Source: Ignavibacteriales bacterium (GTDB lineage Bacteria; Bacteroidota; Ignavibacteria; UBA10030; UBA8401). From it: a DNA stretch of 39,084 nucleotides. Both the position numbers and the translations under genes were made by a program. The stretch is from positions 10,338-49,421 of the forward strand of contig JAPLFO010000148.1 of assembly GCA_026390635.1 (NCBI GenBank), given 5' to 3'. The notes beneath the pieces are model-generated. The model was not told the DNA's origin and did not search any database. It was given only the letters and a program-made list of their open reading frames with translations. How positions within the stretch are numbered: position 1 is the stretch's first letter; every line of letters begins with the position of its first letter. Positions 8,134-36,139 of the stretch are shown one piece after another.

Positions 8134-9614
8134 CTACAACTCGCAATAGATCCCATCATCCGACAAATTCTTGCACGGATAACGCCAGTCGTCATTCTGA
8201 GATGCAAAGAGATCCCTCGCCTCGATCGGTCCCCAGGTTCCAGCCGGATAACCGTAGAGTTTTTCTCCAGGATGTTCATCCCACGCGTTCACGATCGGCA
8301 TCACAAATGCCCAGCATGCTTCCACAGCATCGCTGCGGGCATATAATGTCGCATCCCCCAGCATACAATCCAGCAGCAGGCGTTCATAAGCGGAAGGAAC
8401 ATAGGTATGCGACAATTCGGAATAGTGAAAATCCATATTCACGGTTTGGATATCGAAGCCAGCACCGGGGACCTTCATTCCGAATTTGACAAGCACGCCC
8501 TCATCCGGTTGGATACGTATGACCAATTGATTGCCGGCCGCAACACCGGACTCTCCGCTGGAGAAAAGGACATGCGGTGTTTTATTAAAATGGATCACCG
8601 CTTCCGTCACGCGTGTCGGCAGGCGCTTGCCGGTTCTAATGTAGAATGGCACTCCGCCCCACCGCCAGTTATCGATGAAAAACTTCATTGCGACAAACGT
8701 CTCAATGCGGGAGTCTGGTGCAACATCTTTTTCCCGGCGATATCCCGGAACAGATTCGCCCCTAATGACCGAAGCGACATACTGCCCGCGGATGACCGAC
8801 CGGAAGACATCCTCCTTCTTCAGTGGCCGCAGCGATTCCATGACTTTGACTATTTCATTCCGGACTGCCGTTGCATTGAACGTGGACGGTGGTTCCATCG
8901 CGACAATCCCCGCCACTTGCAGTAGATGGTTCTGCACCATGTCCCGCAGGATACCCGCCTGTTCGTAATACCCGCCGCGGTTTTCGATGCCGATATTCTC
9001 GGCCGCGGTGATTTCGACGCGATCGACATAGTTGCGATTCCAGAGCGGCTCGAACATACCGTTCGAAAAGCGCAGCGCCATGATATTCTGGACGGTTTCC
9101 TTGCCGAGATAGTGATCAATGCGGTAGATTTGCGATTCTTGGATTCAAGATCGCGACCGAACGGTGTTTCAACAATAATACGCCGCCATGCCATTCCTTC
9201 CCGCTGCACATTCAGCTCATGGGCGGCGAGCGCGTGAGCGACGGTTGCATAGAGACTGGGCGGCGTCGCCAGGTAATAAATGTAGTTGCCGCCGATGTGG
9301 TGATCCGCATCCAGCGCAATCAACCGCGAGCGGACAGATGCATACTCCAGAACGTTGGAGGTATCAATGCTGATATAATGGAGCATGGAGCAAAACTCTT
9401 GCACGCAGTGCCGGTCCTCTGCAACCAGCGAGTCCGCCATTGCAGCGCGAAACTCATCGTCATTCATGCGGGATCGCCCCACACCCAGAACGACAAATTT
9501 TCCGGGAAGCTGATGCTGCCGGTGCAGTTCAAACAGCGCCGGCACCAGTTTCTTTTTTGTAAGATCTCCCGACGCTCCGAAAATTATCAGGATGCAGGAA
9601 TCAGGAATGGACAT
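8134..9614 (-). pseudogene. zwf: Glucose-6-phosphate dehydrogenase, interrupted by an internal deletion and frameshift
   Basis: The 5' part (9614 to about 9141, 158 codons) encodes the NADP-binding half: IIFGASGDLTKKKL, YLATPPS and RRIIVETPFGRDLES. The 3' part (about 9141 to 8134, 335 codons) continues in a different frame with QESQIYRIDHYLGKETVQNIM, then the substrate domain with GLFEPLWNRNY-like and IRTGKRLP segments. In intact enzymes roughly a dozen more residues lie between DLxSA and the (E)xQIYRIDHYLGKE motif. So about 37 bases are missing at 9132-9141 and the frame is changed. GAATC occurs twice at the junction (GAATCCAAGAATCG on the minus strand), which fits deletion between short repeats. 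The start ATG (9612-9614) has a clear AAGGA site. It may be a true pseudogene, or an assembly or sequencing error. Confidence 0.88.
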
Positions 9615-9807
9615 AGGTTCCTTTTTGTCTAAAATACTAAAAATATCGATCACTTTTTGCGGGCAAGCATTTTTACGGGTTTTCCTTTATATTCTGTGGC
9701 GTCCGGTGGCGGCTTCCGGCATCTTTTGCAGGGAACAACTGCTCTTATCGCATGGGGCGATCGCTGCGGGCCGTTTTCCATTCACTTCACCGAGGGAGTG
9801 CTGATAC

Positions 9808-15786: not shown

Positions 15787-17803
15787 CTATTTGGCTAATA
15801 CGAGCTTATTCATTTGGCTCTTTAAGGATCCATTCACTAGCTGATCCAACCTTGCAAAATAGACTCCGCTTGCATTGTTAGATGCATCCCATCGAGTTTC
15901 GTACGTACCCTCTGCGGCCTGTTGATCTATCAACGTTGCGACTTCTCTGCCGAGAATGTCGAATATTTTCAGTGAAACAATACTTGCCTGAGAAATTGAA
16001 AAGCGTATGGTCGTTGCCGGATTAAATGGATTGGGATAATTTTGTTCCAGGAAGAATTCTCGCGGCTCTGAGTGCCAATCGAGGCGAACGTCCGTGAGAC
16101 TGCAGGAATCGCCCGGACGGATGATGTGCATGGCCGCTCCGATGAATGCTGCGTTTTGCACAGCATTTGCCATTCCGGGCGACAGGAAGAGAGGAAAATC
16201 TACCCACTGCGCATTTCGGGCGTCAATCACTATTAGCGGCGTGGATGTCTGTGCAACTCCGCATACCGCGATGCTGTTATTTTTTACGGCGACATACGCT
16301 CCGGCGTCGATCAGCAATCCATACGGAAGCCGTGATATACCCATAGACCACATCATCCCCATCACCCGGTTTCCACTGAAATCATATCCTCTGCTATTAT
16401 TCGAATTTTGATAGAAGCGGGGAATCGGCTGCATGCCTTTGAGCAAATTTAGACCCGGTAACTGAGTAAGGTATCCATAGTACGCGCCGAGAGTGCTGCC
16501 GCTCACACCCCCGATTGCTTTTTCGCCCGCAAGCATCACATCATCCGAGAGAAAAAGAATCGGTTTCCCTGCATCCACTTTTAGTGCAAACATTGCGCCG
16601 ACAGAAGTACCGGTGCTCAGAAGTCCAGCTAGGCTGTCAAGTGAATTTCCGACAAAAACAAATGCGCCGCACGATGCAGCTGCCGCTGTCATGTTCGGAT
16701 CATTCTTATGTGTTTCATCAATCCAGAGTATGCGGGATACTAGTCCCCACGAATTTAGTGAGTCCCTAACTAAAGTTGCGCCAGCTGAGGCTGCAGGAGA
16801 AGAGAAGATTCCAACAGCATCATTTTGATTGATTAATAATGATTGTAGCTTTTTAAAGCTTCCGGCAGAAGCAAACCAATCTATTGATTTGCCGCTTCCA
16901 TCCAGGATAATCGTCCCGCCCGGAGAAGAGATCTGTTTGGGGCTGAATGCCGTGGCTGTGGCCGGCCGCAATATCTCTCCGGTGGCAAAATTGATCTTAT
17001 AACCGGGGAGTAGTTGATCGAATTTCATGTTCTGCATGGAAAACGATTTGCCGGATTCAATGACGTACCGCGTATCAACGTTCCAGCGCAGCAAAGCAAC
17101 GGCACTGCCCCCCATCACCTCGCCGACATTATCCGGCCCTACTGCGAGAGCCGTCGTAGCATCAACCGCTACAAAGAAAAGCAGGAAGGCGCCCGAGGCG
17201 CCCCCGCTCGTTGGTATGACTCTCCGCAAGCACGTTCGGCACAAATGGCAGAAAATCATCCGCCAGTGAAATGGAAGAGGCAGGAGAACGCAGAAGCGCT
17301 CCGTTGTCTGAAGTGCCTGAATAGTAGCAGATATTGCTCAGCACCATTTCGCCTGCGCTCGAGCCTCCAACCACTCCTCCTCGTTGGAACACCTCTTTAA
17401 TCGCTTGCTGTGTCAGTGTCCCTTTCCAGAGCCCGACGTATTGCGCCTGATCACCTCCACGGAGAAAGATGCCGTCGTGCTGAAGAATGAATCTGTACAT
17501 TGCCGAATCGTTGGCCTGCGCCGCAGTGATGAAGCGATTATTCACGGTGCAGGGGCTCAGCCACGAAAAGTAGCCAGTGAACCAACTGGTTGCGTTTGTG
17601 TCCGCATAGTGAAGAACCAGAATCTTTCTGTTCGGCGCATGCTGGACCAACCAGCGGTACGGCGCATCCGACCAATTGTTGTAGTTTTCGGTGCCTCCTC
17701 CCACAAGAAGAACCGATCCCTGGCTCAGGCCTTGGACCGCAAGAATGACGGCGAGCAAAATCTGCCACGTCATGAATTGTGCAGAAGAAAACTTTGAAAC
17801 CAT
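15787..17803 (-). pseudogene. T9SS-exported cyanophycinase-like (S51) peptidase with a one-base frameshift
   Basis: The first 210 codons (17803 to about 17174) encode a signal peptide and an S51 serine peptidase core: LLVGGGTENYNNW, GIFLRGGDQAQ, the nucleophile motif GGSSAGE (Ser149), and SHTNERGRLGRL, whose His196 matches the catalytic histidine region of cyanophycinase. The frame then stops, but an adjoining frame continues at once with VAVDATTALAVG, the next conserved block of the family. Removing one T from the CTTTTCTTTG run near 17175 restores a protein of about 670 residues. The later part holds what may be a second, degenerate S51-like domain and ends with a T9SS tail (LEQNYPNPFNPATTI to NKLVLAK). 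The ATG at 17801-17803 has GGAAG upstream. The gene directly follows the PorV-like gene in an uptake operon. Cyanophycinases release beta-aspartyl-arginine dipeptides; the substrate here is not proven. Confidence 0.82.
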
Positions 17804-17853
17804 TGCTCGCTTCCACAATAGTTTGGACAAAAACGATGATTTACGAACCTGCT

Positions 17854-18849
17854 TCAAAAATCCAACCCGACAGAAAATCTGTGAATGCTCGGCAACAGAT
17901 CGTATTGTGAAAATCCATAGTCAAAAGTGACGCGTGTTGATTCTCCGGCCCATGCGACGCCCGCGCCGAGAGTGAGGCCTTCCTTGTCGTAGTGATAGCG
18001 ATACCCGCCGCGCAGAAACAGCGCCCGGAAGATACCAATCTCAGTTCCGACATTCACGCGTTCGTCGTTGTCGTTCGGATGGGCGACATCAGCTGCAACA
18101 AGCCAAGATATATTTTCGCTTGCATAGGGAACAGCGGAGATACCGACTTGAAAATGCAGCGGCAGCGCATACTCGTCTGTCACGAGTTTGGCAGTCACCT
18201 TTCGCTCCCGTCCATTGTACACATCCTTGTCATAAGTGACGGCAAGATCCTGCCCGTCCATCTTCAAATTACCGCCATAGTTCGTCAGGCTCATGCCGAT
18301 CGTGAAGTCGTTGAACCACAGGCGGTACTGCGTTCCGACGTCAACGGCGATTCCGGAAGCCGACTCCCTCAAGATGGTCTCGTTGACATACTTCACCGTA
18401 ACACCGGCGTTGAATTTGTCCGTCAGCGCCCGCGCATACGTCAGTCCGATGGCCAATGAAGTGGGAGAAAAGGATTGTCCGGTTCCTTCCGGATTCAGTT
18501 CGGTCGTAATCTCCATCGGATCCATGGACATGGAAACGATAGACGCGCCGACGGTTCCCGCTTCACCGAGCTGCAAGGCATACGCAGCCGCAGTGACTTG
18601 GATTGTCGCCCACCATTGGTTGTAGTTGAATGTGGCTGATTGACTGGCGACACCGATGATCCCGGCGGGATTCGAAAATATTGCCGATGCGTCGCTGGCC
18701 GACGCAACAGTCGCCCCCGCCATCGCCATAGCCCGGGCTCCGACGCCGATCTGAAGAAACTGGGCACCGGCCGTACCAAGGTTGGGATTTTGCCCCAGCA
18801 CGACAGTGTAGGTTCCGATCAGAAAAAAGAAAATGCGTATCGTTTTCAT
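17854..18849 (-). CDS. PorV/PorQ-family outer-membrane protein
   Basis: This 331-residue beta-barrel protein has a signal peptide and the family start NPNLGTAGAQFLQIGVGARAMAMAGA, followed by DASAIFSNPAGI. It ends with FDYGFSQYDLLPSIHRFSVGLDF, closing on an aromatic residue as outer-membrane barrels do. PorV relatives shuttle T9SS cargo tails from the translocon or are related FadL-like barrels; this one is shorter than classic PorV. AGGAG lies seven bases upstream of the ATG. It follows the ~930-residue protein by 10 bases and precedes the S51 peptidase, both likely T9SS cargo, which suggests a dedicated acceptor. A close paralogue with the same neighbours is at 35129-36127. Confidence 0.88.
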   Translation of the reverse strand: MKTIRIFFFLIGTYTVVLGQNPNLGTAGAQFLQIGVGARAMAMAGATVASASDASAIFSNPAGIIGVASQSATFNYNQWWATIQVTAAAYALQLGEAGTVGASIVSMSMDPMEITTELNPEGTGQSFSPTSLAIGLTYARALTDKFNAGVTVKYVNETILRESASGIAVDVGTQYRLWFNDFTIGMSLTNYGGNLKMDGQDLAVTYDKDVYNGRERKVTAKLVTDEYALPLHFQVGISAVPYASENISWLVAADVAHPNDNDERVNVGTEIGIFRALFLRGGYRYHYDKEGLTLGAGVAWAGESTRVTFDYGFSQYDLLPSIHRFSVGLDF

Positions 18850-18859
18850 GGTGATGCTC

Positions 18860-21652
18860 CTATTTTATTACAGCAAACCGGGATAACCGTTCGCCATACG
18901 ATGTCTTGACCAGGAAGAGGTAGATCCCTGCCACGATCTCGCGCTTTCCCGCCGCGCGCAAATCCCACGATTCTTCCCCAGTTTGGTTCGAATGGTTGAT
19001 GGTCTGCACCAGATCGCCGTCCATCGTAAAGATAGAGATCGTACATTCGGCGGGAAGGTGGATGAATCGAATGACCCGAAGCGGTTCGCGCCGCAGCGTT
19101 CCATAATCCTTCTCGTACAACGACGAAACAATGTATGGATTGGGCACCACCTTAATCTTATTCAGTTCACTTTGAGCGCGGTCGTTATTGATACTCCAAC
19201 CAACGAGTTTGAAAGTGTACAGATCGTCGTACGAAGGCCGGACGAGTTTTCTGGTCACAACCTCATACACCGTGGTGGAATCCGGAACCTTGCCCGCCAA
19301 GAACGAAACTTTAAAAGACACTCCCCGGTCCGAGAACATCCATGATGTTCCGGCGTTCAGTGAATCCCTTATCGCCAGCGGTACGGTCGCAGACGAAGAA
19401 TCTGTCACTTGAACCTTGATCGTGTTGTTGCTGTATTTCCTTACTACTGAAATTCTGTAGAGCGTATTTACTGCACTGTCGGCGTACTGCGCCGCAGCGG
19501 TGACGATGAGTCCACTTCCCGCGACCAATTGCTGGCCGGCAACAGGTGACGGCGGTGAGAACCGGAACAGAAGCCGGTTGGTGGAAAGCAGAGGCGTATT
19601 ATACAGAAGTGGTTGTATTGGCAGGATTGTGTCGATGCCTGCGGTGACGAACACCCCCTGCGAAATAAGAAGCGTGTCGCCTGCCTGCGGTTTGAAATCC
19701 GCCGTCGTGTCGCGTTCAGAGAAGATAAGACTGGTTCCCTTGCTCGCGCTCGTGAGGCTCAACACAAAAACGGTATCCGCCTTGTAGTCCTTCGTAAGAA
19801 CGTTTTTAAATTTGTTCTCAAACACTCGAAATCTCAGCACTCCGGCTTGGTCAAAAAACTGGACCAGATAGTCGTACGGCCTGAGTGTATCCGCCGGCGT
19901 GCTCTTGAAAAGAGTGACTTTCGTTTTCAGGTTGCCGCTAACGACCGATGCGTACTGTGCGAAATGGATCGAATCCTGACGGCTGTCGTTGGGTTGCTGA
20001 TCTTTCAGGAAGACCTCCGCCTGGTAATTGGAATTACCTGTGTGACCCCATTGGGTGGTCGCAGCCGGCACATATCCAAGCGGGTCGGTATGCGGCCTGC
20101 CGATCTTGAGATTGGAAAGGGTCGTATTCGAGCCGATGGACGATTCCAGCCGATCAACCAGCGAATCCCCTCGATCGTACGCAGTGATCGAATACCAGTA
20201 ATCAAATCCGTTCGTCACATCGCGATCTTCATAGGTGTACTGAATTCCGCTGTTCGGCGGCAAATCGTTGCTCTTGTCATACTGCGCCAGCATCGTCCAA
20301 CTCACGCCGTCGTCGCTGCTTCGATATAACTTGTATCCTTCAAAATCAAAATTGCCGGTAAACTTGTCCTGCGCGATTTCTGATTTGTTGTCCCACGACA
20401 CTTGCACAGTCTTGTCTCCTCCAATCACGGTAATGCTCGGCGGTGGTGGGGCGGAAGGCACGGCCCAATTGAGATCCACAATGCGCTTTGCCTGCTTGGC
20501 ATATTGCATGAATTCCGTGTGATTAAGGCCTCCGACAAAGGCAACGACAAAGGGACCTATCGTCTGTCCGGGCTGGAGCGTGTACGGGCCCGAACTTTGG
20601 TAGCACGTTTCATCCCCCGTCGGGATGTTGAGTGAATCATCAAAATGAATATTGGCCGAACCTGATGCAATGTGAAACAGCTTCGGACCCCATGTGGGAT
20701 CGTTCTTGAGACGTGGATCGCTCGACATGACGCCGTAAAAAAGACTGTCCACGTCCAAAATATTGTCATCATTATAATCCACGCGATGAAAATCCGTCAT
20801 CCCAAGCTCGACCCCGTTCACCTTCGGGGATTTCAGAAACATGCATCCGAATTCGTTGTTCATGGGATTCATACCCCAGTCACTGGACTTGCGGTCGACA
20901 TCATACTTGTAATACATCCCCATCGCTTTGTCGAAAACAATCTTATCGTCCAAATATTCAGGATCGCCGCCCGAATCATTCCCGATGGAGATTTCGCTGT
21001 ACATGCTGAAGTAGAGGCCATCGAGTTGCCTGCCGCTGGTGTTCACGATCTCAAAGGAATAGAAAATGATGTTCGAGACAAGCTTGACGCCCCAGCAATA
21101 TCCTGTTTGCTTCACAAGCAGTCCGATCGGAGTTGCTGAACCGGAATCGCTGTAGACGCAATAACTGTCCTGATCGGAAACGAAAACGGGATTGCCCAGC
21201 GCATCCTTTACCGGCCAACCGGACGCAGGCCAAGAGTTTGGATTGTCGGACATGGCCACAGAGAGATAGGCGGCTCCGGGCTGACTCGCATTGTGGTATC
21301 CTCCTACGGCCTCCCACTCTTCGTTGGTTGTTAATTTTCCCTGGATGACGTTTCCCGGAATACCAACAAACGGATTCGCCCGATAGATGTGGTCATGGAG
21401 ACTCTTGATGGGAAATTCACCGTCCGGACCATCCGCCTTTCTTCTGGGATAGAGCTTCCCGCGGTTCTCAAAATACATCCCCACATTACCTTTGTTGTGG
21501 ATACCTGCCGCACGATCAAGCGTTCCTGTCGTCTTGAACAGAGAATGTACCCCGGACTTCGGTGCGTCGTTGTCCCGGCCATTCGACTGTTGCTGACTTA
21601 CCGCAATCTGCATCACCGCCGTCAGCATCAACACTGTCCTCACATTTTTCAT
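18860..21652 (-). CDS. Large secreted surface protein (about 930 residues) with FnIII-like domain and T9SS-like tail
   Basis: A signal peptide (MKNVRTVLMLTAVMQIAVS) is followed by a conserved N-terminal region: ENRGKLYPRR, EEWEAVGGYHNA, GWPVKDALGNPVF and SDQDSYCVYSD. Acidic loops such as DYNDDNILDVDS could bind calcium. Around residues 425-520 lies a fibronectin-III-like stretch (SAPPPPSITVIGGDKTVQVSWDNKSE, YKLYRSSDDGVSWTML, YWYSITAYDRGDS). The C-terminus (KIKVVPNPYIVSSLYE, CTISIFTMDGDLV, REIVAGIYLFLVK, FAVIK) has the fold order of a T9SS sorting domain without the NYPNPFNP start. It is encoded between the TonB receptor (21 bases away) and the PorV-like protein (10 bases). I infer an outer-surface ligand-binding partner of the receptor. 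A full-length paralogue is at 36140-38932. Confidence 0.75.
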   Translation of the reverse strand: MKNVRTVLMLTAVMQIAVSQQQSNGRDNDAPKSGVHSLFKTTGTLDRAAGIHNKGNVGMYFENRGKLYPRRKADGPDGEFPIKSLHDHIYRANPFVGIPGNVIQGKLTTNEEWEAVGGYHNASQPGAAYLSVAMSDNPNSWPASGWPVKDALGNPVFVSDQDSYCVYSDSGSATPIGLLVKQTGYCWGVKLVSNIIFYSFEIVNTSGRQLDGLYFSMYSEISIGNDSGGDPEYLDDKIVFDKAMGMYYKYDVDRKSSDWGMNPMNNEFGCMFLKSPKVNGVELGMTDFHRVDYNDDNILDVDSLFYGVMSSDPRLKNDPTWGPKLFHIASGSANIHFDDSLNIPTGDETCYQSSGPYTLQPGQTIGPFVVAFVGGLNHTEFMQYAKQAKRIVDLNWAVPSAPPPPSITVIGGDKTVQVSWDNKSEIAQDKFTGNFDFEGYKLYRSSDDGVSWTMLAQYDKSNDLPPNSGIQYTYEDRDVTNGFDYWYSITAYDRGDSLVDRLESSIGSNTTLSNLKIGRPHTDPLGYVPAATTQWGHTGNSNYQAEVFLKDQQPNDSRQDSIHFAQYASVVSGNLKTKVTLFKSTPADTLRPYDYLVQFFDQAGVLRFRVFENKFKNVLTKDYKADTVFVLSLTSASKGTSLIFSERDTTADFKPQAGDTLLISQGVFVTAGIDTILPIQPLLYNTPLLSTNRLLFRFSPPSPVAGQQLVAGSGLIVTAAAQYADSAVNTLYRISVVRKYSNNTIKVQVTDSSSATVPLAIRDSLNAGTSWMFSDRGVSFKVSFLAGKVPDSTTVYEVVTRKLVRPSYDDLYTFKLVGWSINNDRAQSELNKIKVVPNPYIVSSLYEKDYGTLRREPLRVIRFIHLPAECTISIFTMDGDLVQTINHSNQTGEESWDLRAAGKREIVAGIYLFLVKTSYGERLSRFAVIK

Positions 21653-21673
21653 AGTCATCGCCCTTAGAAATAT

Positions 21674-24160
21674 TTACATTGAGAGTCGGAGCCCAAGCCT
21701 TATTCGACGAGGCGAGCCATAGTTGGCAGGATTCCGGTAGTACTCTTCCGAATAGAGTTTGACGAGCGGCATATCCGGTGATCCGCTATCGGTGTACAGA
21801 CTCACGACATTTTTGTAGTTCGTCAGATTCAGACATTCCAGAAAGGCGGTGAGCCGCATGCCGTAAATATTCCAATCGCGTCCGATTTCCGCATCGAGCG
21901 TGAATGACCACGGATAGCGGGCTGAATTCAGTTCGACCGGACCCAAATCCCGCCCGGTGGGAGTGTAGGGAACTCCGCTGCTGGCACGCGAGATGAAGTT
22001 CCAGTAGGAATTCTCAAACAGCTTAATCCCCAGCACTGTCGGACCCTCGTTGCTGTTGAACGTCAGGCTGAGTCCGGCATTGAGCGAATGGGTTCTGTCG
22101 AAACTGAGATAGTATAGATTAGTCGACTCTTGCGTTCCGGGATATTGTTCCTCCGTGGATGATGCGCTCCCTTTCGCCACCTGATAGGAGTACGTGAAGG
22201 AACCAGACACATTATTCATGCGCCGCCGGATAAATCCAATCTCGAATCCTTTGGTATTGGCATAGTCCTCATTCACATACACCGTGTATCCCACCGGATT
22301 ACCGGAGGTGTATGCCCCCGTATAGTGCGTTCCTACAAGCCCGGTAATATCCTTATAATAGAGTGTGAAGGTACCGGCAAGATTGTCAGTGAATTGATGA
22401 CTCAGACTGACCTGATACGCAACCGTCCGCTGAGCATCAAGATCCGGCGTACCAAAAATCGGTTCGCGCACTTTGAAGTCATAGTTCATGTACCGGAAAA
22501 TGTATTGGTAATCGGGATTCTGGAAGAAATGCCCGTAAGAAAAGCTGATGTTGGTCTTGTCGGTCACCGGATGGGCGATCCCGATGCGTGGACTCAGCTG
22601 CACCTTGGACGTCGGCTGAATGTACACCGACGAATTGAACGGGTTCAACCGGAAAGATGCATTCTGGTCTGCATAGTCGAACCGCAGGCCCAGATTCAGG
22701 ATCAGTGCTGGAAATTCCATCTTGTCCTGAACGTACGCCACCGCTTCGTACGGTGTGCGGGAGAAATCGTCACGATACGGCGCCACCCGTTTCGGCCCCA
22801 GTACATTTTGGCGTTTCAGCGTATGCTGCTTGAGTTCGGCACCAAGTTTTATTTCGTGCGACGATGCATATTGCCAGACAAGATCCGATTTGAAATTGAG
22901 CGTGGAACTTTCTGAATGATCCCATTCCTCCGGGATTGCAAGAGCGTAGAAGTCATTGCCGGTCCCTTTGTTCGCCAGATACTGATAGCGCTGGCTATTG
23001 AGGTACTGGGAAGTGTCGAGATACTCGCCGTCCGCTCCAAGAATACCGGTGCGGCTGGCCTGTGTAAGATACGATACGCGTACATCGTAGTACATGCTCG
23101 ACGAAATGTAATGGGTCCCTTGGGCCATCCATTGCTGGCTGGAAGATGATGGCTGATAGTACATCCAGGGAATGTACTTGTATGCATGACTGTAGTTTTG
23201 ATGCTTGTTGCTTGCGTACCGATATGAACCGACCACCTTGACTCCGGATAGCGGAACCATAGACAGTTTGCCGAGCGTTGAAATGTCATTGTTATAGCCG
23301 AAGGGGAGCCAACTCCCGCGTGCATCCCGTTCACCGCTGACAAAGAACGACAATCTCGGATCTTGCAGAATGGGGCCGCTGACGGTCGCTACGGCGCGGT
23401 TCTCATGAAAATCCGAAAATGGCTGTGCCAAGAATTCGCTCGTCCGCCCTTCAAGTTTTACCTTGAATTTCTCTCCCCCCTCCCTCGTTACCAGATTCAC
23501 AACACCGCTCATCGCCGCACCGTACTCAGCGCTAAATGTTCCCGAGAGAAATTCCATTTGGTCGATGGCATCATTATGCAGCTGCGTTCCCAATCCACCA
23601 TACAACGGATCCTGAACATAGACACCGTCGATCATGTACGCGACCTCATTTCCCCGGCCGCCTCGGATATGGAGGTTGCTTCCCTCGCCCACCACGCCGG
23701 ATTGCATCTGCAGGACACCAGTGAAGTTCGCCACCGGAAGCGCCTGAAGTTCGTCGTGTGACAGAACTGTGACCGAGCCTGTAGCGTCTTTCTGGATCAT
23801 CGGCCGCTCTGCGTAGACGATCTGATCCTGCGTTTGAAGCATGGTTTCGCTCAGCGCAAATGAGATGGATGTCGTTTGATCGATATTCACTTTGACATTT
23901 TCCATCCGGATCGACGCATAACCAATGAAACTCGCTTTCACTTTATAGGTGCCGGGAAGAATATTGACAAGAACAAATGTGCCTTCAACAGTGGTCACGG
24001 TTCCCATCGACGTCCCTTCAATGAGGATGTTGACACTGGGCAGCGCCTCTCCCGTCGCCTTGTTCGTTACGCGACCTGCCAGTTTGCCCGTCGTTCCGCC
24101 GATCACACTGGAAATGCACAGGAACACAGCAAGGCACACGTAGAGCATGGTATATTTCAT
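21674..24160 (-). CDS. TonB-dependent outer-membrane receptor
   Basis: This 828-residue receptor has a signal peptide and then a carboxypeptidase-regulatory-like domain (about 25-110, GKLAGRVTNKATGEALPSVN). A plug domain follows (about 125-240, with LPVANFTGVLQMQSGVV, LHIRGGRGNEVAYMIDGVYV and YGAAMSGVVNLVTREGG). The rest is a beta-barrel of about 590 residues ending RIRLGLRLSM. Such proteins import large or scarce nutrients using TonB energy. AAGGAG lies eight bases before the ATG. It is 21 bases after the RpiR regulator gene and 21 before the ~930-residue protein. No SusD-like lipoprotein is encoded nearby. A paralogue's C-terminus is at the right window edge. The cargo is unknown; neighbouring peptidases suggest peptides. 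Confidence 0.92.
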   Translation of the reverse strand: MKYTMLYVCLAVFLCISSVIGGTTGKLAGRVTNKATGEALPSVNILIEGTSMGTVTTVEGTFVLVNILPGTYKVKASFIGYASIRMENVKVNIDQTTSISFALSETMLQTQDQIVYAERPMIQKDATGSVTVLSHDELQALPVANFTGVLQMQSGVVGEGSNLHIRGGRGNEVAYMIDGVYVQDPLYGGLGTQLHNDAIDQMEFLSGTFSAEYGAAMSGVVNLVTREGGEKFKVKLEGRTSEFLAQPFSDFHENRAVATVSGPILQDPRLSFFVSGERDARGSWLPFGYNNDISTLGKLSMVPLSGVKVVGSYRYASNKHQNYSHAYKYIPWMYYQPSSSSQQWMAQGTHYISSSMYYDVRVSYLTQASRTGILGADGEYLDTSQYLNSQRYQYLANKGTGNDFYALAIPEEWDHSESSTLNFKSDLVWQYASSHEIKLGAELKQHTLKRQNVLGPKRVAPYRDDFSRTPYEAVAYVQDKMEFPALILNLGLRFDYADQNASFRLNPFNSSVYIQPTSKVQLSPRIGIAHPVTDKTNISFSYGHFFQNPDYQYIFRYMNYDFKVREPIFGTPDLDAQRTVAYQVSLSHQFTDNLAGTFTLYYKDITGLVGTHYTGAYTSGNPVGYTVYVNEDYANTKGFEIGFIRRRMNNVSGSFTYSYQVAKGSASSTEEQYPGTQESTNLYYLSFDRTHSLNAGLSLTFNSNEGPTVLGIKLFENSYWNFISRASSGVPYTPTGRDLGPVELNSARYPWSFTLDAEIGRDWNIYGMRLTAFLECLNLTNYKNVVSLYTDSGSPDMPLVKLYSEEYYRNPANYGSPRRIRLGLRLSM

Positions 24161-24181
24161 ACAACTGTCTCCTTACATTGA

Positions 24182-25069
24182 TTAAGCAACATATTGACCG
24201 GTCTCGCGCATTTTTCGGGAGATTGCCTCCATTTTCGGGGCAATCGCTTTTTGGTTTTTCAGTGCAATTTCCGTGACGATTGCATTCATCATAATCGAGA
24301 TTGCGGAGATCGAATTGGTGTACAGCATATTCTTTGTTCGCACCACAATCACTTCGGATGCGTGGAACGTAATCGGAGATGTTCGCGTGTCCGTAATAGC
24401 CACAACCTCGGCTTTCCGTTCATTTGCAAAAGCCGCTGCTTCAATCGTCTCACGCGAATAGGGAGGAAACGAAAATCCGACCACTACATCCCCCTTCCGG
24501 GCGAATGACAGCTGTTCGACGAAGCGCGCCGGACCGGTGGAAATCGATCGTGCGTTGATCGCCACTTGATTGAGTTCATACGACAGGATTTGCGACAACA
24601 GCGAAGATATGCCGACACCCATGGTGAAGACCTGACCCGCATCCAGCATCATTTTCACCACGGCATTAAAGACGGTGCGGTCAAAATGGTTGAGTGTGTC
24701 GTTGATGTTTTCAATTTCTGTTGCGATCACTTTGTCGAGCGCTTCATTCTGGGTTTGCTTCTGCAGCTCTCCCATGTATTGATGCACATTCGACAAATCG
24801 GACTGCAATGCACCCACCGATTCCTGCTGCAATTCGGTGAATCCTTTATATCCCAGGCTTCGTGCAAACCGGACAATAGTCGGCTTGCTGACATGGAGCT
24901 TGCCTGCGAGAAGGTCTGTGGTGAGAAACGCCAGTTCGTTTGGCTGCTGGAGAATGTAGTTCGCAACGATTTTCTGATTTGCAGGAAGATGTTGATAGGC
25001 ATCAACAATCTTCTTGTTCAGTGCTTCCTGAACGGAAATATGATTCGATATTTTCTTTTTTGACGGCAT
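24182..25069 (-). CDS. RpiR/MurR-family transcriptional regulator (HTH + SIS domain)
   Basis: This 295-residue protein has an N-terminal helix-turn-helix at about 46-75 (LTTDLLAGKLHVSKPTIVRFARSLGYKGFTEL), which is diagnostic for RpiR. A SIS domain follows at about 135-270 (VFTMGVGISSLLSQILSYELNQ, FARKGDVVVGFSFPPYSRETIEAA). Members usually sense phosphorylated sugars, amino sugars or related small ligands. GGGAGG precedes the ATG. It lies inside the operon, between the permease and receptor genes, so it likely controls its own operon. The paired palindromes at 27645-27688 are the best candidate sites. An RpiR regulator inside a peptide-handling operon is unusual, so its ligand is worth finding. 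Confidence 0.92.
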   Translation of the reverse strand: MPSKKKISNHISVQEALNKKIVDAYQHLPANQKIVANYILQQPNELAFLTTDLLAGKLHVSKPTIVRFARSLGYKGFTELQQESVGALQSDLSNVHQYMGELQKQTQNEALDKVIATEIENINDTLNHFDRTVFNAVVKMMLDAGQVFTMGVGISSLLSQILSYELNQVAINARSISTGPARFVEQLSFARKGDVVVGFSFPPYSRETIEAAAFANERKAEVVAITDTRTSPITFHASEVIVVRTKNMLYTNSISAISIMMNAIVTEIALKNQKAIAPKMEAISRKMRETGQYVA

Positions 25070-25107
25070 CGTGTGTACCTCCCTTTCCTACCGAAGCGCT
25101 CTGTCCC

Positions 25108-26493
25108 TCATTGATACCCGATCACAAATGCGACACCAAGCAGGATCATGGCGAGACCAAAAAAATAGATCTGTGCCGGCAGCATCCAGCGGATCCACTT
25201 TTCCCATGGTATCTGCGCCATCCCGAGAACACCCATCGTCACTCCGGACGTCGGCAATATCGGATTGATCCATCCTTCGCCGAACTGAAATGCAAGCACC
25301 GCTGTTTGTCTGGAAATGCCGACGGCATCCGCGAGCGGCGCCATGATGGGCATCGTCAACGCTGCCTGACCCGAGCCGGAATGGACAAAGAAATTGATGA
25401 TGCATTGAGTAACGAACATCGCCTGAGCCGCAAAAATGGGATGAATGCCGGCAATAATGTTCGAGAGAGAATGCAGCATCACGTCCAGAATTTTTCCGTC
25501 GTTGGCAATGACGAGAATTGCGCGTGCACATCCGATAATGAGCGCCACGCCCACCATTCCCTGAGCGCCCTTTTTAAAACTGGCAGTTATTTGACCCGCA
25601 GTAAGCCTTCCTGCCACCCCGCATCCGATGCCGACCGCCAGGAACAGAGCGGCGATCTCATTGATATACCACCCGAAGACAAGAACACCGTAGATCAGGA
25701 AAAGCATGGCGCTGACAAACAACGCAAGGACGATTTTATGGCGAACGACAAACGAGGCCGGCACGGCATTGTCGATCTTCAGCGTCGCACGTCGTACTTG
25801 ATCGAGGTCGAACACCGGGCTGAGTTGCGGATTCTTCTTCACCCTGGCCGCATGATGCATGACGAACGTAACCATGGACACTGTACTGATCACCCAGATC
25901 ACCAGGCGGTATTCGAGTCCCGAATACAGTGTGAGTTCTGAAATATTCTGCGCAATACCGACGGTGAATGGATTCAAGACGGCACCGGCAAATCCTGCAG
26001 CCGCACCGAGAAACGGAATGGACGTTCCTGTAATCGAATCATATCCCAGAGAAAGAGCCAGCGGAATAAAGACAAGGACAAACGGCATTCCGGATTCCGC
26101 CATGCCAAAAACGGCGCCCGCGATGGAGAATAGCGTCATTGTCACCGGAATAAAGAATTTTTGCAAATGGGGTTTGCGGGCAAAGGTGTGTGCGAGATGT
26201 TGTACCGAAACGGCGATAGCGCCTGTTTCTTCGACGATCATGAATGCTCCCCCGATAACAAATAGAAAGGCGATAATCTGTGCCGCCTGGATGAACCCTT
26301 TTATCGGAGCAGTGAGTATCGCGCCGATCCCTTGCGGCGTTCCCGTCACGCTCGTAAACGATCCGGTGACCACAAGAGTTTTTCCATTCTTTACCTCGCG
26401 CGTGTATTCGCCGCTGGGGACCACCCAGGTCAGAAAGGCGACCAGTACGACGACCGCATAAATCATGACGAGCGTATTGAAGGAAAATTTCAT
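25108..26493 (-). CDS. YfcC-family inner-membrane permease
   Basis: This 461-residue membrane protein begins KFSFNTLVMIYAVVVLVAFLTWVVPSGEYTREVKNGK and has GAFMIVEETGAI, GMAESGMPFVLVFIPLALSLGYD and HSGSGQAALTMPIMAPLADAVG. These are typical of the YfcC group in the C4-dicarboxylate/ion transporter superfamily. About 11-12 membrane segments are visible. Family members are thought to move amino acids, dipeptides or C4-type carboxylates. The gene lies between an M20 peptidase (33-base gap) and an RpiR regulator (38-base gap). The context argues that it imports the product of the outer-membrane system, such as a dipeptide, arginine or aspartate. That substrate is an inference. Confidence 0.88.
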   Translation of the reverse strand: MKFSFNTLVMIYAVVVLVAFLTWVVPSGEYTREVKNGKTLVVTGSFTSVTGTPQGIGAILTAPIKGFIQAAQIIAFLFVIGGAFMIVEETGAIAVSVQHLAHTFARKPHLQKFFIPVTMTLFSIAGAVFGMAESGMPFVLVFIPLALSLGYDSITGTSIPFLGAAAGFAGAVLNPFTVGIAQNISELTLYSGLEYRLVIWVISTVSMVTFVMHHAARVKKNPQLSPVFDLDQVRRATLKIDNAVPASFVVRHKIVLALFVSAMLFLIYGVLVFGWYINEIAALFLAVGIGCGVAGRLTAGQITASFKKGAQGMVGVALIIGCARAILVIANDGKILDVMLHSLSNIIAGIHPIFAAQAMFVTQCIINFFVHSGSGQAALTMPIMAPLADAVGISRQTAVLAFQFGEGWINPILPTSGVTMGVLGMAQIPWEKWIRWMLPAQIYFFGLAMILLGVAFVIGYQ

Positions 26494-26526
26494 CGAGTGG
26501 CGCCTCTCGGATAGAAAAATCGGTTT

Positions 26527-27633
26527 TTACGCACGCACAAGTTCCCGGGCCAGTTCATACGTCTTCATCATATCTTCAAGAAGGATGAATTCTTCGTACG
26601 AATGGGGTTTCTGCGCTCCGATACCCAGATTGACTGCAGGAATCCCTTTGGCGTTATACTTATTCGCATCGCTGCCGCCGGTGTAGCGGATCGGCTGCGG
26701 CTTCAGCCCTACCGCAATCATGGCTCGTTCGAGTTCGAGAATCATCGGACTATCCGGCGTCAGCATGTACGGCTCGAAATCCGATCGTGAGTGGAAATGT
26801 ATTTTCCCAACTTCACCGATAGAGCAGCGGAAAGCGTTCTCGATGGAATCCAGTTGCTCCCGAATGCGGGCCGGTGTGAACGAACGGACCTCGCCTTCAA
26901 TGGTCACTTTTTCCGGAATTGCATTGATTGCTTCGCCGCCGCTGATCTTTCCGATGTTCGCCGTGGTTGTCGCATCGATGCGTCCGAGAGGCAGCGTCGC
27001 AATCGCCTTGCTGGCAAGCTGTATCGCACTGATGCCTTCCTCCGGCGCGACGCCGGAGTGCGCCGACTTGCCGATGAATTCGGCCGCGAACGTATGCAAA
27101 CCAACAGATTCGCGGATATAGACACCCGGACGCTTCGAACAGTCGAACACATACGCATGCGACGTCACGTATTGCGAAATGTCGATTGTTCCAGCACCGA
27201 ACAGCCCCGTCTCTTCACCCACGGTGAAGGCAACAAAAAAATTCTTGTACTGAAATCGCTGCTGCGCCGCGTCCATCAGGACGCGAACCAGGACCGAAAG
27301 TCCGAGGCGGTCATCTCCGCCGAGAATGGTCGTCCCGTCCGATCGGATGGAAAGAGTATCGACCACCGGCACCAGGTTCCCTGTTGGTTTGACGGTATCA
27401 AGATGAGCCGTCAGCATGATTGCCGGAAGATCGGATCTATAATCAGGCGGGAAACAGAGTAGATTGCCGGCTGTTCCGCCAAGGATCTGCGCAGATCCAT
27501 CTGCGTGTACCTTTACGCCGTGCTGCCGCAGCAGGTTGGTGACCGTGTCGGCAATCGCACGTTCTGCAAGTGAGATTCCTTCTACCTTTGCAAGCCGCAA
27601 GAAGAGTTCGAGAAGATTTGTATCGGGATCCAT
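26527..27633 (-). CDS. Cytoplasmic M20-family metallopeptidase, peptidase T-like
   Basis: This 368-residue protein has the full M20 metal set. His77 is in TAHLDTV, the bridging Asp107 in ILGGDDRLG, the general base Glu140 and ligand Glu141 in VGEETG, Asp164 in VFDCS, and the last histidine in QKPHSYEEF. The lid domain carries GKSAHSGVAPEEG. The GGSDANKYNAKGIP segment is typical of PepT-like aminopeptidases. There is no signal peptide, so it acts in the cytoplasm. It would cleave a small peptide brought in by the next gene's permease. It is the first gene of the seven-gene operon. No ribosome site precedes the ATG at 27631-27633. Its bond specificity, alpha or beta-aspartyl, cannot be read from sequence. 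Confidence 0.9.
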   Translation of the reverse strand: MDPDTNLLELFLRLAKVEGISLAERAIADTVTNLLRQHGVKVHADGSAQILGGTAGNLLCFPPDYRSDLPAIMLTAHLDTVKPTGNLVPVVDTLSIRSDGTTILGGDDRLGLSVLVRVLMDAAQQRFQYKNFFVAFTVGEETGLFGAGTIDISQYVTSHAYVFDCSKRPGVYIRESVGLHTFAAEFIGKSAHSGVAPEEGISAIQLASKAIATLPLGRIDATTTANIGKISGGEAINAIPEKVTIEGEVRSFTPARIREQLDSIENAFRCSIGEVGKIHFHSRSDFEPYMLTPDSPMILELERAMIAVGLKPQPIRYTGGSDANKYNAKGIPAVNLGIGAQKPHSYEEFILLEDMMKTYELARELVRA

Positions 27634-27644
27634 AAGGGGTGTCC

Positions 27645-27688
27645 GTAACCAGTGTTACATCCATTGCCTGCACCGTAACAGATGGTAC
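27645..27688. promoter_or_regulatory. Two operator-like palindromes exactly 30 bp apart
   Basis: Site 1 is GTAAC-CAGT-GTTAC (27645-27658), a perfect inverted repeat. Site 2 is GTAAC-AGAT-GGTAC (27675-27688), matching at four of five arm positions. Both are preceded by CC and share CCGTAAC at the same 30-bp offset, about three helical turns, so two dimers would sit on the same face. They lie 12 and 42 bases upstream of the first operon gene and just downstream of a -35 element. The RpiR regulator of the operon is the likely binder (inference). Confidence 0.6.
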
Positions 27689-27690
27689 AC

Positions 27691-27718
27691 AAGTTATATC
27701 TTTTTTCTACGATGTCAA
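27691..27718 (-). promoter_or_regulatory. Candidate promoter of the peptide-uptake operon
   Basis: On the minus strand a consensus -35 TTGACA (27713-27718) is followed after 16 bases by TAACTT (27691-27696); TATAAC at 27693-27698 is an alternative with a shorter spacer. Transcription would start near 27684, inside operator-like site 2, which fits repression. The -10 is weak, and promoters of this phylum can differ from sigma-70 consensus. Confidence 0.45.
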
Positions 27719-31774: not shown

Positions 31775-33190
31775 CTATGAACCGGAAGTCAGTGCTTTGA
31801 TAAATCTATACATGAACTCGATTCCTTTGTAGAATTCATTCACGCCGATGCGTTCATCTTTCCCGTGGGCGCGAACATCATTCATGTCCGTAAACATTCC
31901 TGAGATACCATACACCGGAATACCCGCTGCGCGCAGCAGCCTTCCATCGGAGGCACCGCCGGACATGTATGGCGTGACAATAACACCAGGCCACATTGAA
32001 GCCGTAAGACGATCAAGAGTCTCCAGAACATCTTTCCGGAGAGGCGAGCGGGGGCTCAGAGTTGAGGCATTTGTGCAGATTATTGTAACATTGGTGTCGG
32101 CAACAACGGTCTTGAGTGTGGCCAGAACATTCTCAGGACTGTCGTCGGGCAGCATGCGACAATTAATATTCGCTTGAGCGGTCTGTGGCAGAGCATTTTC
32201 AGCGTGGCCGCCGCTCAGCATCGTAGCAACGCAGGTAGTACGCATTTTCGAATTGTAGCTTGGGGAAGCATGCGCGAGTCGATTTGCTGCCGCGGCGTCG
32301 ATCGGAATTTCGGTCATGGCCAGCATATCGGCTTTCAGCTGGTCTGTTTCCTGAAGAGCGCTTCGCGCAAAATACATTCGCGTTGTTTCATTGAGATTGA
32401 TCGGAAAGTCATACGCGGCGAGCCGTGTGAGAGCCGCTGCAAGTCGGTAGATTGCGTTTTCCTTAACCGGCACCGCGCTATGACCGCCTTTATTGTGCAC
32501 TTCCAGCTTAAAATCAAGATAGACTTTCTCGCTCGTTTGTATCGTCATCACGATGTCCCTGCCATTCTTGCTGTCACCGCCTCCACCGTCCGGATTTATG
32601 CAATACTCTGCATCGATAAGGTCGCGGTGATTGGTAAGCAGCCATTGCACACCGTTGGCATCGCCGTTCTCTTCGTCTTCCGTGAGAGCAACAATAATAT
32701 CACGTTGAGGAACGAACCCTTCCTGTTTCAGCCGGATGAGATTTGTGATCAGGCTTGCGTCATCGCATTTCATATCTGTTGTTCCGCGACCATAGAAGTA
32801 ACCGCCGCTTTCGAGGAACTTGAAGGGATCGAAAGACCAATCTTGCCGGAGCGCCTCAACGACATCGAGGTGTCCGATCAACAGAATTGGCCGCAGGGTG
32901 CCCTTACCCCGGTAACGCACAACAAGATTCATGTGCAGCGGCTGCGGCCCGAGCAGTCTCACATCATTTTCTGCAAAACCCGCTGCTCTCAACCGCGCAG
33001 CCATCGCCTCGGCGGCTTTTGTGCAGCCCATATTCAGTGTTGTATTGATCTCAATCAGTTCCTGGAATAACTCGCGGGCCAATCTTTGATGTGCAATAGT
33101 AGCATTGGATCCCTCGAACGATTGAGTATAGACCACGGCGGAAGGAATGACGATCGCAGCGATGAGCGACCATGTGATAAGCGATTTCAT
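31775..33190 (-). CDS. Secreted M20-family carboxypeptidase-like metallopeptidase
   Basis: This 471-residue protein has a signal peptide (KSLITWSLIAAIVIPSAVVYTQ) and an intact M20 core: LLIGHLDVV (metal histidine), YGRGTTDMKCDD (bridging aspartate), LTEDEENGD (catalytic and metal glutamates), and near the end DVRAHGKDERIGV (last metal histidine). The lid has HNKGGHSAVP. The set is closest to PM20D1/carboxypeptidase Ss1-like enzymes, and it differs clearly from the peptidase T-like protein at 26527. It would act in the periplasm or outside, trimming peptides or acyl-amino acids. AAGGAG precedes the ATG. It follows the transglutaminase-like gene by 132 bases. Confidence 0.9.
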   Translation of the reverse strand: MKSLITWSLIAAIVIPSAVVYTQSFEGSNATIAHQRLARELFQELIEINTTLNMGCTKAAEAMAARLRAAGFAENDVRLLGPQPLHMNLVVRYRGKGTLRPILLIGHLDVVEALRQDWSFDPFKFLESGGYFYGRGTTDMKCDDASLITNLIRLKQEGFVPQRDIIVALTEDEENGDANGVQWLLTNHRDLIDAEYCINPDGGGGDSKNGRDIVMTIQTSEKVYLDFKLEVHNKGGHSAVPVKENAIYRLAAALTRLAAYDFPINLNETTRMYFARSALQETDQLKADMLAMTEIPIDAAAANRLAHASPSYNSKMRTTCVATMLSGGHAENALPQTAQANINCRMLPDDSPENVLATLKTVVADTNVTIICTNASTLSPRSPLRKDVLETLDRLTASMWPGVIVTPYMSGGASDGRLLRAAGIPVYGISGMFTDMNDVRAHGKDERIGVNEFYKGIEFMYRFIKALTSGS

Positions 33191-33322
33191 TGTAATTCTC
33201 CTTCGAGAATAGATGTCACACAACAGTATGTGCATAGGGTTCTCCTCGTTCCCACGCACCGCTGGGCCAGAGGCACTTCGACGAGCGAGAAGACCACATG
33301 ACCAGCCAACAGGAGGGTATTG

Positions 33323-34384
33323 CTATGGCAATTCTTCGTACCGCACCAGCCTTCGTTCGGTCCTGATGTTTGCGGAAAAGCCGCTCTTCACCATCGTCAC
33401 GAATTGCATGAAGTCCGTCCGGTTTCCCTGTGCATCCTGATCGGCGTATGTTGCCCATGAAGGAACGTGCTTCAGCGGCAGGTTCATTCCCACTGATGCG
33501 ATGAGGCGGTTGTTCGGCAAATGCGCAAATCCATCCGGCAACGTTGCATCCATAGGCACCCAGCCAACGGCGGGTAGATACACTTCGCTCCAGACATGAT
33601 AACCAAATTTTCCGTCGTCGATCACAAGACCCGACTGCTGCCGCGCCGGAATGCCGGCAGAGCGGCAGAGTCCGATGAAGAGGGCAGAATACTGGCCGCA
33701 ATCTCCTTCGTAGCACTTGATCGCCTCCAGTACGCCGCGAGCATCCGGCGGATATTTATAGTGCATTCTCTTGCGCACAAAATCGAAAATGCGATGCGTT
33801 TTTCCCGGTAGCGCCCGTTCGCCGCGGACAATGCTGTCCGCCAACAGGATCAACGGCGGCGTCTGTTCAAGCGACGGTTCCGCCTTTGTGTAGAAATAGA
33901 ATACATCGTCCGGTACGCCGCCATAGGTTTGCGGAACAGCGGATTCGTCGAAGTGTTTCACATAGTCATAGGTGGTGTAGGAGAACTTTCTCTTGACGAT
34001 GATCGATTCTTTGTCCGTCAACCGTTTCGAAAGATCCCAGAAACAGATACGATTGCCGTTTTCATTCTCAGTGGTAATCTCCGTTGGCGGCGTCGAGGAA
34101 AATTCCGATTCTTTCACCCGTTGCGCGGGCCGGCCGATGATGTCGGAACACCAGAGAAGAAATGTCGGAGGTTGATCTGCAGATATTCCCCGGCGTAGAT
34201 TGGTCGCTTTGAGAGAATCCGGTTCAAGGAATACCACGCTGTCGATAGTGATGACGAACTCCGCTTCCACCAGGCGCGGATGGGTGTATCCGTTGACTGG
34301 CAGGAACAGCGAATTCGACGAAGAGCATCCAATGAAGAGCGCGACATTGATGAGCAGTAAAGCCGCAAGTGATACGATTTTCAT
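33323..34384 (-). CDS. Transglutaminase-like cysteine peptidase domain protein, probable lipoprotein
   Basis: This 353-residue protein starts with a short signal (KIVSLAALLLINVALFIGC) ending at Cys20, which suggests lipid attachment although the -3 residue is not ideal. The C-terminal half is a transglutaminase-like domain with the full triad: Cys229 in GDCGQYS, His263 in GYHVWSEVY, and Asp279 in WVPMDAT. Members act as cysteine peptidases or amide cross-linkers in the envelope. The N-terminal 190 residues look like the beta domain often found in front of such enzymes. AAGGAT lies eight bases before the ATG. Upstream, beyond the repeat at 34410, is the kinase-like gene of the second receptor cassette. 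Confidence 0.88.
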   Translation of the reverse strand: MKIVSLAALLLINVALFIGCSSSNSLFLPVNGYTHPRLVEAEFVITIDSVVFLEPDSLKATNLRRGISADQPPTFLLWCSDIIGRPAQRVKESEFSSTPPTEITTENENGNRICFWDLSKRLTDKESIIVKRKFSYTTYDYVKHFDESAVPQTYGGVPDDVFYFYTKAEPSLEQTPPLILLADSIVRGERALPGKTHRIFDFVRKRMHYKYPPDARGVLEAIKCYEGDCGQYSALFIGLCRSAGIPARQQSGLVIDDGKFGYHVWSEVYLPAVGWVPMDATLPDGFAHLPNNRLIASVGMNLPLKHVPSWATYADQDAQGNRTDFMQFVTMVKSGFSANIRTERRLVRYEELP

Positions 34385-34409
34385 GAGCCCGATCCTTCAA
34401 GAAAATGAC

Positions 34410-34477: not shown

Positions 34478-34487
34478 AAATAGCAAC

Positions 34488-35117: not shown

Positions 35118-35128
35118 CGCTTCCCTCC

Positions 35129-36127
35129 TTAGAACGCTATGCCCACGCTGATCCGCTGGACATTGGGCAGAATGTCGTAGATACTGTAGCCATAGTCAAA
35201 AGCGAGCAGCGATCCGGCAAATGGAAACGAGGCTCCGGTCCCAAAGGTAAAGCTCTCATCATCGTAATGATAACGGTACCCGCCGCGCAGGTACACGCGA
35301 TCAAAGAACGACGTCTCGATTCCTGCGTTGATGCGCTCACGATTGTCGCTGGGATGTGCGGCGTCCACTGCGCCGCGCACGGAGAATGTTTCCGAGCGGT
35401 ACAGATCCATTCCTATCCCCACCTGAAAATGAAGCGGCAGTGGGTACTGATCGGGCTCATAGCGCGCGGGCGCCAGACGGCTATTTGGAAAATTTTTGTC
35501 GCGAAGATATGTGATGTTCAGATCGGGTCCATTGAACTGAAGATCGCCGCCGAAATTCGTCATGCTCATCGCAATGGTCAGATTCTGGAAATCGATGCGG
35601 TATTGTGTTCCAATGTCGAAGGCAATACCGTCGGCAACTTCATTCCAGATGCGTTCGTACACATATTTTCCCGTTATACCGACACTGAACCGGTCAGTCA
35701 AAAATCGTGCATACGTCAGACCGAGCGCAAGATCCTGCGCATCAAAGAACTGCCCGGTTCCGTTCGGCTGCGACTCCGTGGTCACTTCCATCCGATCCAT
35801 CGACAGCACGATCGCGCTTGCCGCCAGCACACCGGACTCTCCCATCGCATGCACCACCGAAACCGCATTGATGTCGAACGATTGAAGCCAGCGCATGGAC
35901 GAAAACTGCGCCGCGTTGTTTTCCACACGGGCGACACCTGCCGGATTCCAGAACACGGCAGATGCATCATCCACTGTCGCGACGCAGGCGCCCGCCATGG
36001 ACGTTGCACGCGCACCGATCGGTATTTGAAGGAATTTGGCTCCGGCGGATCCCAGATTCGGATTCTGCGCCGCCAACGGCAGCGCGATGAGACATATGCC
36101 GGTGATAGTACTGAGCGTTCGTTTCAT
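35129..36127 (-). CDS. PorV/PorQ-family outer-membrane protein (second copy)
   Basis: This protein of about 332 residues has a signal peptide and NPNLGSAGAKFLQIPIGARATSMAGA, then DDASAVFWNPAGVARV. It ends FDYGYSIYDILPNVQRISVGIAF. It matches the protein at 17854 along its full length, including TTESQPNGTGQFF against TTELNPEGTGQSF and the YLRGGYRYHYDDE block. This makes it a paralogue from the duplicated cassette. It lies 12 bases after the large secreted protein and 11 before the kinase-like gene. It probably receives or anchors the large protein's C-terminal tail in the outer membrane; this role is inferred from the PorV family. Confidence 0.87.
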   Translation of the reverse strand: MKRTLSTITGICLIALPLAAQNPNLGSAGAKFLQIPIGARATSMAGACVATVDDASAVFWNPAGVARVENNAAQFSSMRWLQSFDINAVSVVHAMGESGVLAASAIVLSMDRMEVTTESQPNGTGQFFDAQDLALGLTYARFLTDRFSVGITGKYVYERIWNEVADGIAFDIGTQYRIDFQNLTIAMSMTNFGGDLQFNGPDLNITYLRDKNFPNSRLAPARYEPDQYPLPLHFQVGIGMDLYRSETFSVRGAVDAAHPSDNRERINAGIETSFFDRVYLRGGYRYHYDDESFTFGTGASFPFAGSLLAFDYGYSIYDILPNVQRISVGIAF

Positions 36128-36139
36128 ATGCATGTCCTG

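Follow-up and report, generated by a model that had tools for sequence, protein, structure and literature searches.

Two neighbouring operons of an Ignavibacteriales bacterium most likely serve the digestion and import of cyanophycin

Cyanophycin is a large nitrogen store of cyanobacteria, and its consumers and their means are poorly known. Utilization loci for it have been described in Salinivirga cyanobacteriivorans L21-Spi-D4 (Ben Hania 2017) and also in Flammeovirga pacifica, according to the passages of a 2023 survey that treat them (PMC10206079); the same passages count isoaspartyl dipeptidases as undiscovered in Firmicutes and Bacteroidota. A TonB-dependent receptor (TBDT) encoded beside a cyanophycinase in Citromicrobium sp. 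JLT1363 was proposed in 2012 to serve cyanophycin uptake (PMC3400609). The stretch analyzed here (the window) comprises 39,084 nucleotides of contig JAPLFO010000148.1 of an Ignavibacteriales bacterium (GCA_026390635.1; G000:C31:10338-49421, where G000 is the bacterium's own genome). Related locus stretches carry L numbers, and L014 continues the window past its right end. The window holds a seven-gene operon (operon A) and the end of a paralogous operon (operon B), and it is probable, in our fairly confident judgment, that the two form a duplicated cyanophycin-scavenging locus working by the mechanism proposed below. To judge by their genes, they most likely let the bacterium digest and import cyanophycin.

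Operon A runs on the minus strand from a gene for an M20 peptidase through genes for a YfcC-family carrier, an RpiR-type regulator, a TBDT, a surface protein termed SP930, and a PorV-like barrel to a gene for a long S51 peptidase, with intergenic gaps of 33, 38, 21, 15, 10, and -4 bases (Table 1). A sequence-only reading of the window had proposed that these seven genes serve the uptake of a peptide polymer, its best guess being cyanophycin. All seven were found, with labels that match Pfam and NCBIfam; the M20 gene itself stood, and the remainder between its start at 27633 and position 27718, where that reading had ended the locus, is upstream sequence.

The key canonical enzyme sits outside the window, in operon B, where an intact S51 gene (short S51) was found about 6 kb past the right end. 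Operon B covers window positions 31775-38932 and continues for about 8 kb past the window (L014), in the order M20, short S51, YfcC, a protein with a type IX secretion system (T9SS) tail, RpiR, and TBDT, followed within the window by SP930 and PorV-like genes. Its M20 and short S51 genes overlap by one base, and identity to the operon A counterparts is 58% for M20, 71% for YfcC, 37% for RpiR, and 44% for TBDT. The short S51 scores above the 126.6-bit cut-off of the curated cyanophycinase model TIGR02069. All catalytic and pocket residues listed for CphB (3EN0, 7UQW, 7UQV) and extracellular CphE, namely the Ser132-His174-Glu201 triad and Gln101, Asp172, Gln173, Arg178, Arg180, and Arg183 (PMC3235067), are identical in 22/22 short S51 homologues, whose N-termini resemble Sec signals or lipoprotein signals as judged by eye. 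Because the long S51 of the window is broken and the long S51 family is without the catalytic Glu, the short S51 of operon B is likely the working cyanophycinase. The same two observations leave the window's own secreted S51 without support in the cleavage step that the sequence-only reading had assigned to it, and its view of the seven genes as a complete pathway gives way to one in which the canonical enzyme belongs to the paralogous operon.

The M20, short S51, and YfcC genes recur as a cassette. An M20 orthologue (at least 44% identity) is encoded in 15 of 60 genomes of the order, and in 15/15 the short S51 lies about 70 to 115 bp away, measured between profile match edges. When about 85,000 species genomes were scanned with an M20 alignment, 33 loci emerged, spanning Ignavibacteria, Bacteroidales (including a Tannerella sp. 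metagenome-assembled genome and Bacteroidales bacterium CF), Neomarinimicrobiota, and Elusimicrobia. By six-frame hidden Markov model searches, the short S51 adjoins M20 in 27 of the 31 testable loci, and YfcC comes next in 28/29. The four loci without a short S51 are L034 and L035 (both operon A-type), L049 (YfcC kept), and L062, where the Elusimicrobia M20 paralogue (L062:9974-11074) has its metal ligands destroyed, has no S51 or YfcC neighbour, and adjoins a more distant M20 copy. M20 and short S51 are correlated in their pairwise distances (r = 0.88; 0/2000 permutations reached this r), which shows that the two are co-inherited, genome relatedness contributing. The complete operon A order recurs in L034, with an open S51 frame, and partly in L035. 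Gene order is thus kept across genomes and the locus is not a product of chance. The earlier reading would have been refuted by relatives that never link S51 and M20 genes to the outer-membrane genes; this was checked, and relatives do link them.

The long S51 gene of operon A is present as two open reading frames (ORFs) in different frames, one with the S51 domain and the other with the T9SS tail. In a DNA alignment with the close relatives L015 and L034, the window was short of 38 bp near 17173/17174, in the part that joins the catalytic His motif to the Glu position; a one-base sequencing or homopolymer slip was therefore rejected as the simplest cause of the frame break. An intact long S51 stands, for example, at L037:7753-9777. 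An assembly error behind the deletion is possible. Glucose-6-phosphate dehydrogenase also looks split in the ORF translations (8134-9081 and 8850-9653, minus strand, different frames), and caution on assembly quality is therefore advised. These data bear on a somewhat unlikely alternative, in which operon A is decaying as a copy of operon B and has no function of its own: the deletion, the missing short S51, and the fuller content of operon B fit it, but the other six operon A ORFs are intact, L034 has the type A order with an open S51 frame, as L035 does in part, and the other frame breaks in the window point to a possible assembly error.

Both the broken gene of the window and the long S51 of L018 (117 bits) score below the TIGR02069 cut-off. 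All 14 long S51 sequences keep Ser, His, Gln101, and the three Arg; position 172 holds either Asp or Glu, and position 173 holds Thr (as in CphE), Ser, or Asn instead of Gln. The AlphaFold2 model (mean pLDDT 71) found its best structure matches in cyanophycinases (7uqv, E 4.4e-20, target TM 0.84; 7uqw; 3en0), with peptidase E matching far more weakly, and its second region is alpha/beta and a candidate degenerate S51 repeat. The third catalytic residue is known to vary across the S51 family (PMC9239234), and the model suggests that the long S51 combines the fold and pocket of a cyanophycinase with a changed triad, acting either as a modified enzyme or as a protein that binds at the surface. 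As in T9SS substrates, a C-terminal Por sorting domain is present and homologues of the T9SS sortase PorU were found, those of the own genome being fragments under the cut-off.

Arginine-catabolic genes are linked to the S51 genes. Divergent from the operon B M20 gene (L014) is an operon for ornithine carbamoyltransferase (OTC), carbamate kinase (ArcC), an aspartate-type carbamoyltransferase, ornithine aminotransferase, and a 456-aa P-loop protein, and OTC/ArcC-type genes are linked to long or short S51 genes in L014, in L023 (directly after the long S51), and, in part only, in L026 and L038. The P-loop protein (L014:12951-14318, L015:1926-3329, L023:15759-17135) has no NCBIfam match and a weak cobW match; its gene closes the OTC/carbamate kinase/ornithine aminotransferase operon in L014 and L023, and in L015 it comes after the aminotransferase gene. 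Cyanophycin synthetase CphA1 gave no match over the cut-off in the 60 relatives, the weak matches probably being Mur ligases and ATP-grasp proteins; this rules out storage by the host and points to scavenging. The canonical cyanophycinase, the OTC/carbamate kinase linkage, and the absence of CphA1 together lend good genomic support to the guess that the substrate is cyanophycin or its dipeptide. It is quite improbable that the locus instead imports other aspartyl or general oligopeptides with S51 acting as a peptidase E-like aspartyl dipeptidase. The S51 family does include peptidase E, with different substrates (PMC9239234), and sister loci with the same outer-membrane genes carry POT, NhaC, M14, and M3 genes, as loci for general peptide use typically do, but the short S51 exceeds the curated cyanophycinase cut-off with its whole pocket kept, the structure matches favour cyanophycinases over peptidase E, and arginine-catabolic genes are linked.

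For the step after cyanophycinase, the cassette M20 is the natural candidate and may split beta-Asp-Arg. It has the two-zinc ligand set and the M20 dimerisation domain (Pfam), and the motifs H-x-D, D, EE, D, and H are kept except in L062. Its nearest named model is TIGR01883 (PepT-like), and its nearest solved relatives are named peptidase T or tripeptidase (3gb0, 3rza). FDCSKRPG was rejected as a universal signature of the cassette M20, being replaced in Elusimicrobia and Bacteroidales; GGSDANxxNAKG and GA[QKR][NK]PH suit the cassette better. The isoaspartyl dipeptidase IadA was found in 0/60 relatives of the order, and this absence, with the near-universal adjacency of M20 and cyanophycinase, strengthens the earlier suggestion that M20 performs the isoaspartyl dipeptidase step. 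The accompanying statement that no isoaspartyl dipeptidase is present is limited to the locus: an unlinked Asparaginase_2 (IaaA family) gene lies elsewhere in the genome. It is conceivable, if unlikely, that the locus acts on cyanophycin while this Asparaginase_2 or a secreted M14 cleaves beta-Asp-Arg and M20 serves other small peptides. Asparaginase_2 occurs in 54/60 relatives including G000, an M14 gene adjoins the locus in L018, L021, L063, L070, L071, and L073, and the known CphZ is an AstE/AspA-type enzyme in the relevant passages of PMC10206079; against this, Asparaginase_2 is in most relatives regardless of S51 presence, G006 (estimated 100% complete) has short S51 and M20 with neither Asparaginase_2 nor IadA, and M14, unlike the near-universal M20, turns up sporadically and is missing from the cyanophycin loci of G000. 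A pair of genes for a secreted M14 and a MenC/N-acylamino-acid-racemase-like enolase was seen beside PorV-like, long S51, or YfcC genes in L018, L021/L022, L063, L064, L070, L071, and L073, and was not found in the cyanophycin loci of G000.

RpiR, TBDT, SP930, and PorV-like genes come after the cassette in Ignavibacteria, and in the Bacteroidales loci L054, L061, and L063 the same cassette adjoins genuine SusC and SusD (Pfam SusD_RagB) genes; the TBDT/SP930/PorV-like triad therefore occupies the SusC/SusD slot. RagAB is the peptide example of SusC/SusD-type utilization loci. SusD (PF07980) was not found in the own genome and was found in 1/21 genomes searched. SP930 as a SusD-like protein is unsupported, since its low-confidence AlphaFold2 model (mean pLDDT 62.5) matches fibronectin type III/Ig-like proteins only; partial SP930 matches are common. 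Sister triads in L066-L069 consist of a TBDT, an SP930 relative of about 990 aa, and a PorV-like protein, most with a distant M20. M14, NhaC, and POT genes occur in L066/L069, M3 is also among the genes of the L066, L067, and L069 triad loci, which stand in the same genomes as the cassette loci, and an aspartase/fumarase-family lyase gene adjoins M20 in L067. These sister triads are probably other peptide-utilization loci.

Several points weigh against the reading of the two operons as a cyanophycin-scavenging locus. The arginine deiminase family was not found in the own genome, nor was DDAH_eukar, so that OTC and ArcC are the parts present of the arginine deiminase pathway (ArcA, OTC, and carbamate kinase). 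Operon A is incomplete on its own, as it is without a short S51 and its long S51 is broken. The long S51 family never keeps E201, which is Tyr, Ala, Asp, or Ile in 13/14 sequences and a gap in one. The M20 falls under the PepT-like cut-off, beta-aspartyl activity is known for none of its solved relatives, and the unlinked Asparaginase_2 gene (C183:34323-35201) could perform the dipeptidase step. The triad type also occurs with other peptidases (L066, L067, L069), and hence the triad alone does not specify cyanophycin.

Table 1. Genes of operon A, of operon B, and of the flanking window, with the matches that support each label (window coordinates unless preceded by L014).
Feature	Position	Strand	Evidence
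Operon A
M20 peptidase, PepT-like, 368 aa, proposed beta-aspartyl-arginine dipeptidase	26527..27633	-	TIGR01883 239 bits (cut-off 274); Pfam M20; Zn ligands kept
YfcC/DcuC-family inner-membrane carrier, 461 aa	25108..26493	-	DcuC 324 bits; NF008611 (putative basic amino acid antiporter) 372 bits, under cut-off 500
RpiR/MurR-type regulator, HTH_6 + SIS	24182..25069	-	Pfam
TBDT, 828 aa	21674..24160	-	CarboxypepD_reg + Plug
SP930, 932-aa beta-rich surface protein, receptor partner	18860..21658	-	Pfam none; T9SS tail weak
PorV/PorQ-family outer-membrane protein, 331 aa	17854..18849	-	NF033709 206 bits (cut-off 90)
Disrupted long S51, N-terminal part, cyanophycinase-like domain	17162..17857	-	Peptidase_S51 37.5 bits; TIGR02069 60.8 bits
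Disrupted long S51, C-terminal part with T9SS sorting tail	15787..17259	-	Por_Secre_tail 38 bits
After operon A
T9SS-tailed protein, 651 aa	13665..15620	-	Por_Secre_tail 47 bits
Operon B
M20 peptidase	L014:7296-8414		58% identical to the operon A M20
Short S51	L014:6424-7296		TIGR02069 181 bits
SP930 paralogue	36140..38932	-	
PorV-like paralogue	35129..36133	-	
Transglutaminase-like protein downstream of triad	33323..34384	-	Transglut_core 83 bits
Second M20 peptidase downstream of triad	31775..33259	-	PRK09133 624 bits (cut-off 349)

The 63-bp gap before the second M20 gene suggests that it belongs to operon B. The T9SS-tailed 651-aa protein is 40% identical over 644 aa to L015:4100-5989, which there follows the long S51. 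Elsewhere in the window, at 4815-6975 (minus strand), an Asp/Glu racemase-family ORF (PF01177) shares about 190 bases, in another frame, with the ORF at 5656-6975, which has no Pfam match.

Beyond what the sequences show of gene content, gene order, conservation, and catalytic residues, the proposed mechanism infers the substrate, the direction of transport, the specificity of M20, the compartments, and the effector of RpiR. Outside the cell, cyanophycin would be bound or trimmed by surface proteins that the type IX system exports, among them the long S51 where its gene is intact, and the TBDT, SP930, and the PorV-like barrel would bring oligomers or dipeptides through the outer membrane. The Sec-exported short S51 of operon B would free beta-Asp-Arg in the periplasm, YfcC would move the dipeptide (or Arg in exchange) across the inner membrane, and M20 would cleave it into Asp and Arg in the cytoplasm. 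Arg would then enter the neighbouring OTC/carbamate kinase/ornithine aminotransferase operon, and RpiR would regulate the process. A broader proposal falls just short of being probable in our estimation: that the cassette M20 is a new, dedicated family of cyanophycin-dipeptide hydrolases filling the Bacteroidota gap, and that the triad is a class of SusD-independent outer-membrane peptide importers across Ignavibacteria. A conserved M20 beside cyanophycinase in four phylum-level groups is a directly testable candidate for the undiscovered dipeptidase.

An S51-based uptake locus, which the sequence-only reading had taken for new, is not new in itself, since cyanophycin utilization loci and T9SS-tailed S51 enzymes have already been published. 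The Salinivirga locus, known here through citing papers, is in the passages of PMC10206079 devoted to it a scavenging cluster of cyanophycinase genes and a transporter without cphA1, as is the present one, and both pair a plain S51 with one that bears a Por-secretion domain (PMC6243061); it carries iadA in those passages, whereas here neither iadA nor iaaA was found in the cluster and an M20 takes the place of IadA. Citromicrobium sp. JLT1363 shares the linkage of TBDT and cyanophycinase, but as a single linkage in a proteobacterium with no triad and no M20 described (PMC3400609). CphZ/AotO (Sharon 2023, via passages of PMC10206079) is likewise a metallo-enzyme for the same proposed reaction, but belongs to an AstE/AspA-type family rather than M20. 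The long S51 is like CphB and CphE in its Ser, His, Gln, and Arg pocket, with the CphE-like Thr before His in half of the members, and unlike them in having no E201, a second alpha/beta region, and a T9SS tail. A full-text search, with subscription papers mostly outside it, returned no relevant literature on cyanophycin with M20 or on PorV, TonB receptor, and Ignavibacteria. Relative to the sources cited, the replacement of IadA by M20, the M20-S51-YfcC cassette in four phylum-level groups, and the replacement of SusC/SusD by the triad are provisionally new. As in SusC/SusD loci, a TonB receptor, a surface partner, an outer-membrane protein, a regulator, and degradative enzymes stand in one operon, but SP930 and a PorV-family barrel replace SusD in a genome free of it. 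The exchange around the same enzymes suggests two interchangeable outer-membrane machineries and could help to annotate the many triads of Ignavibacteria that are as yet uncharacterised. Compared with the known cyanophycin loci, the final enzyme is probably different and the outer-membrane importer is different.

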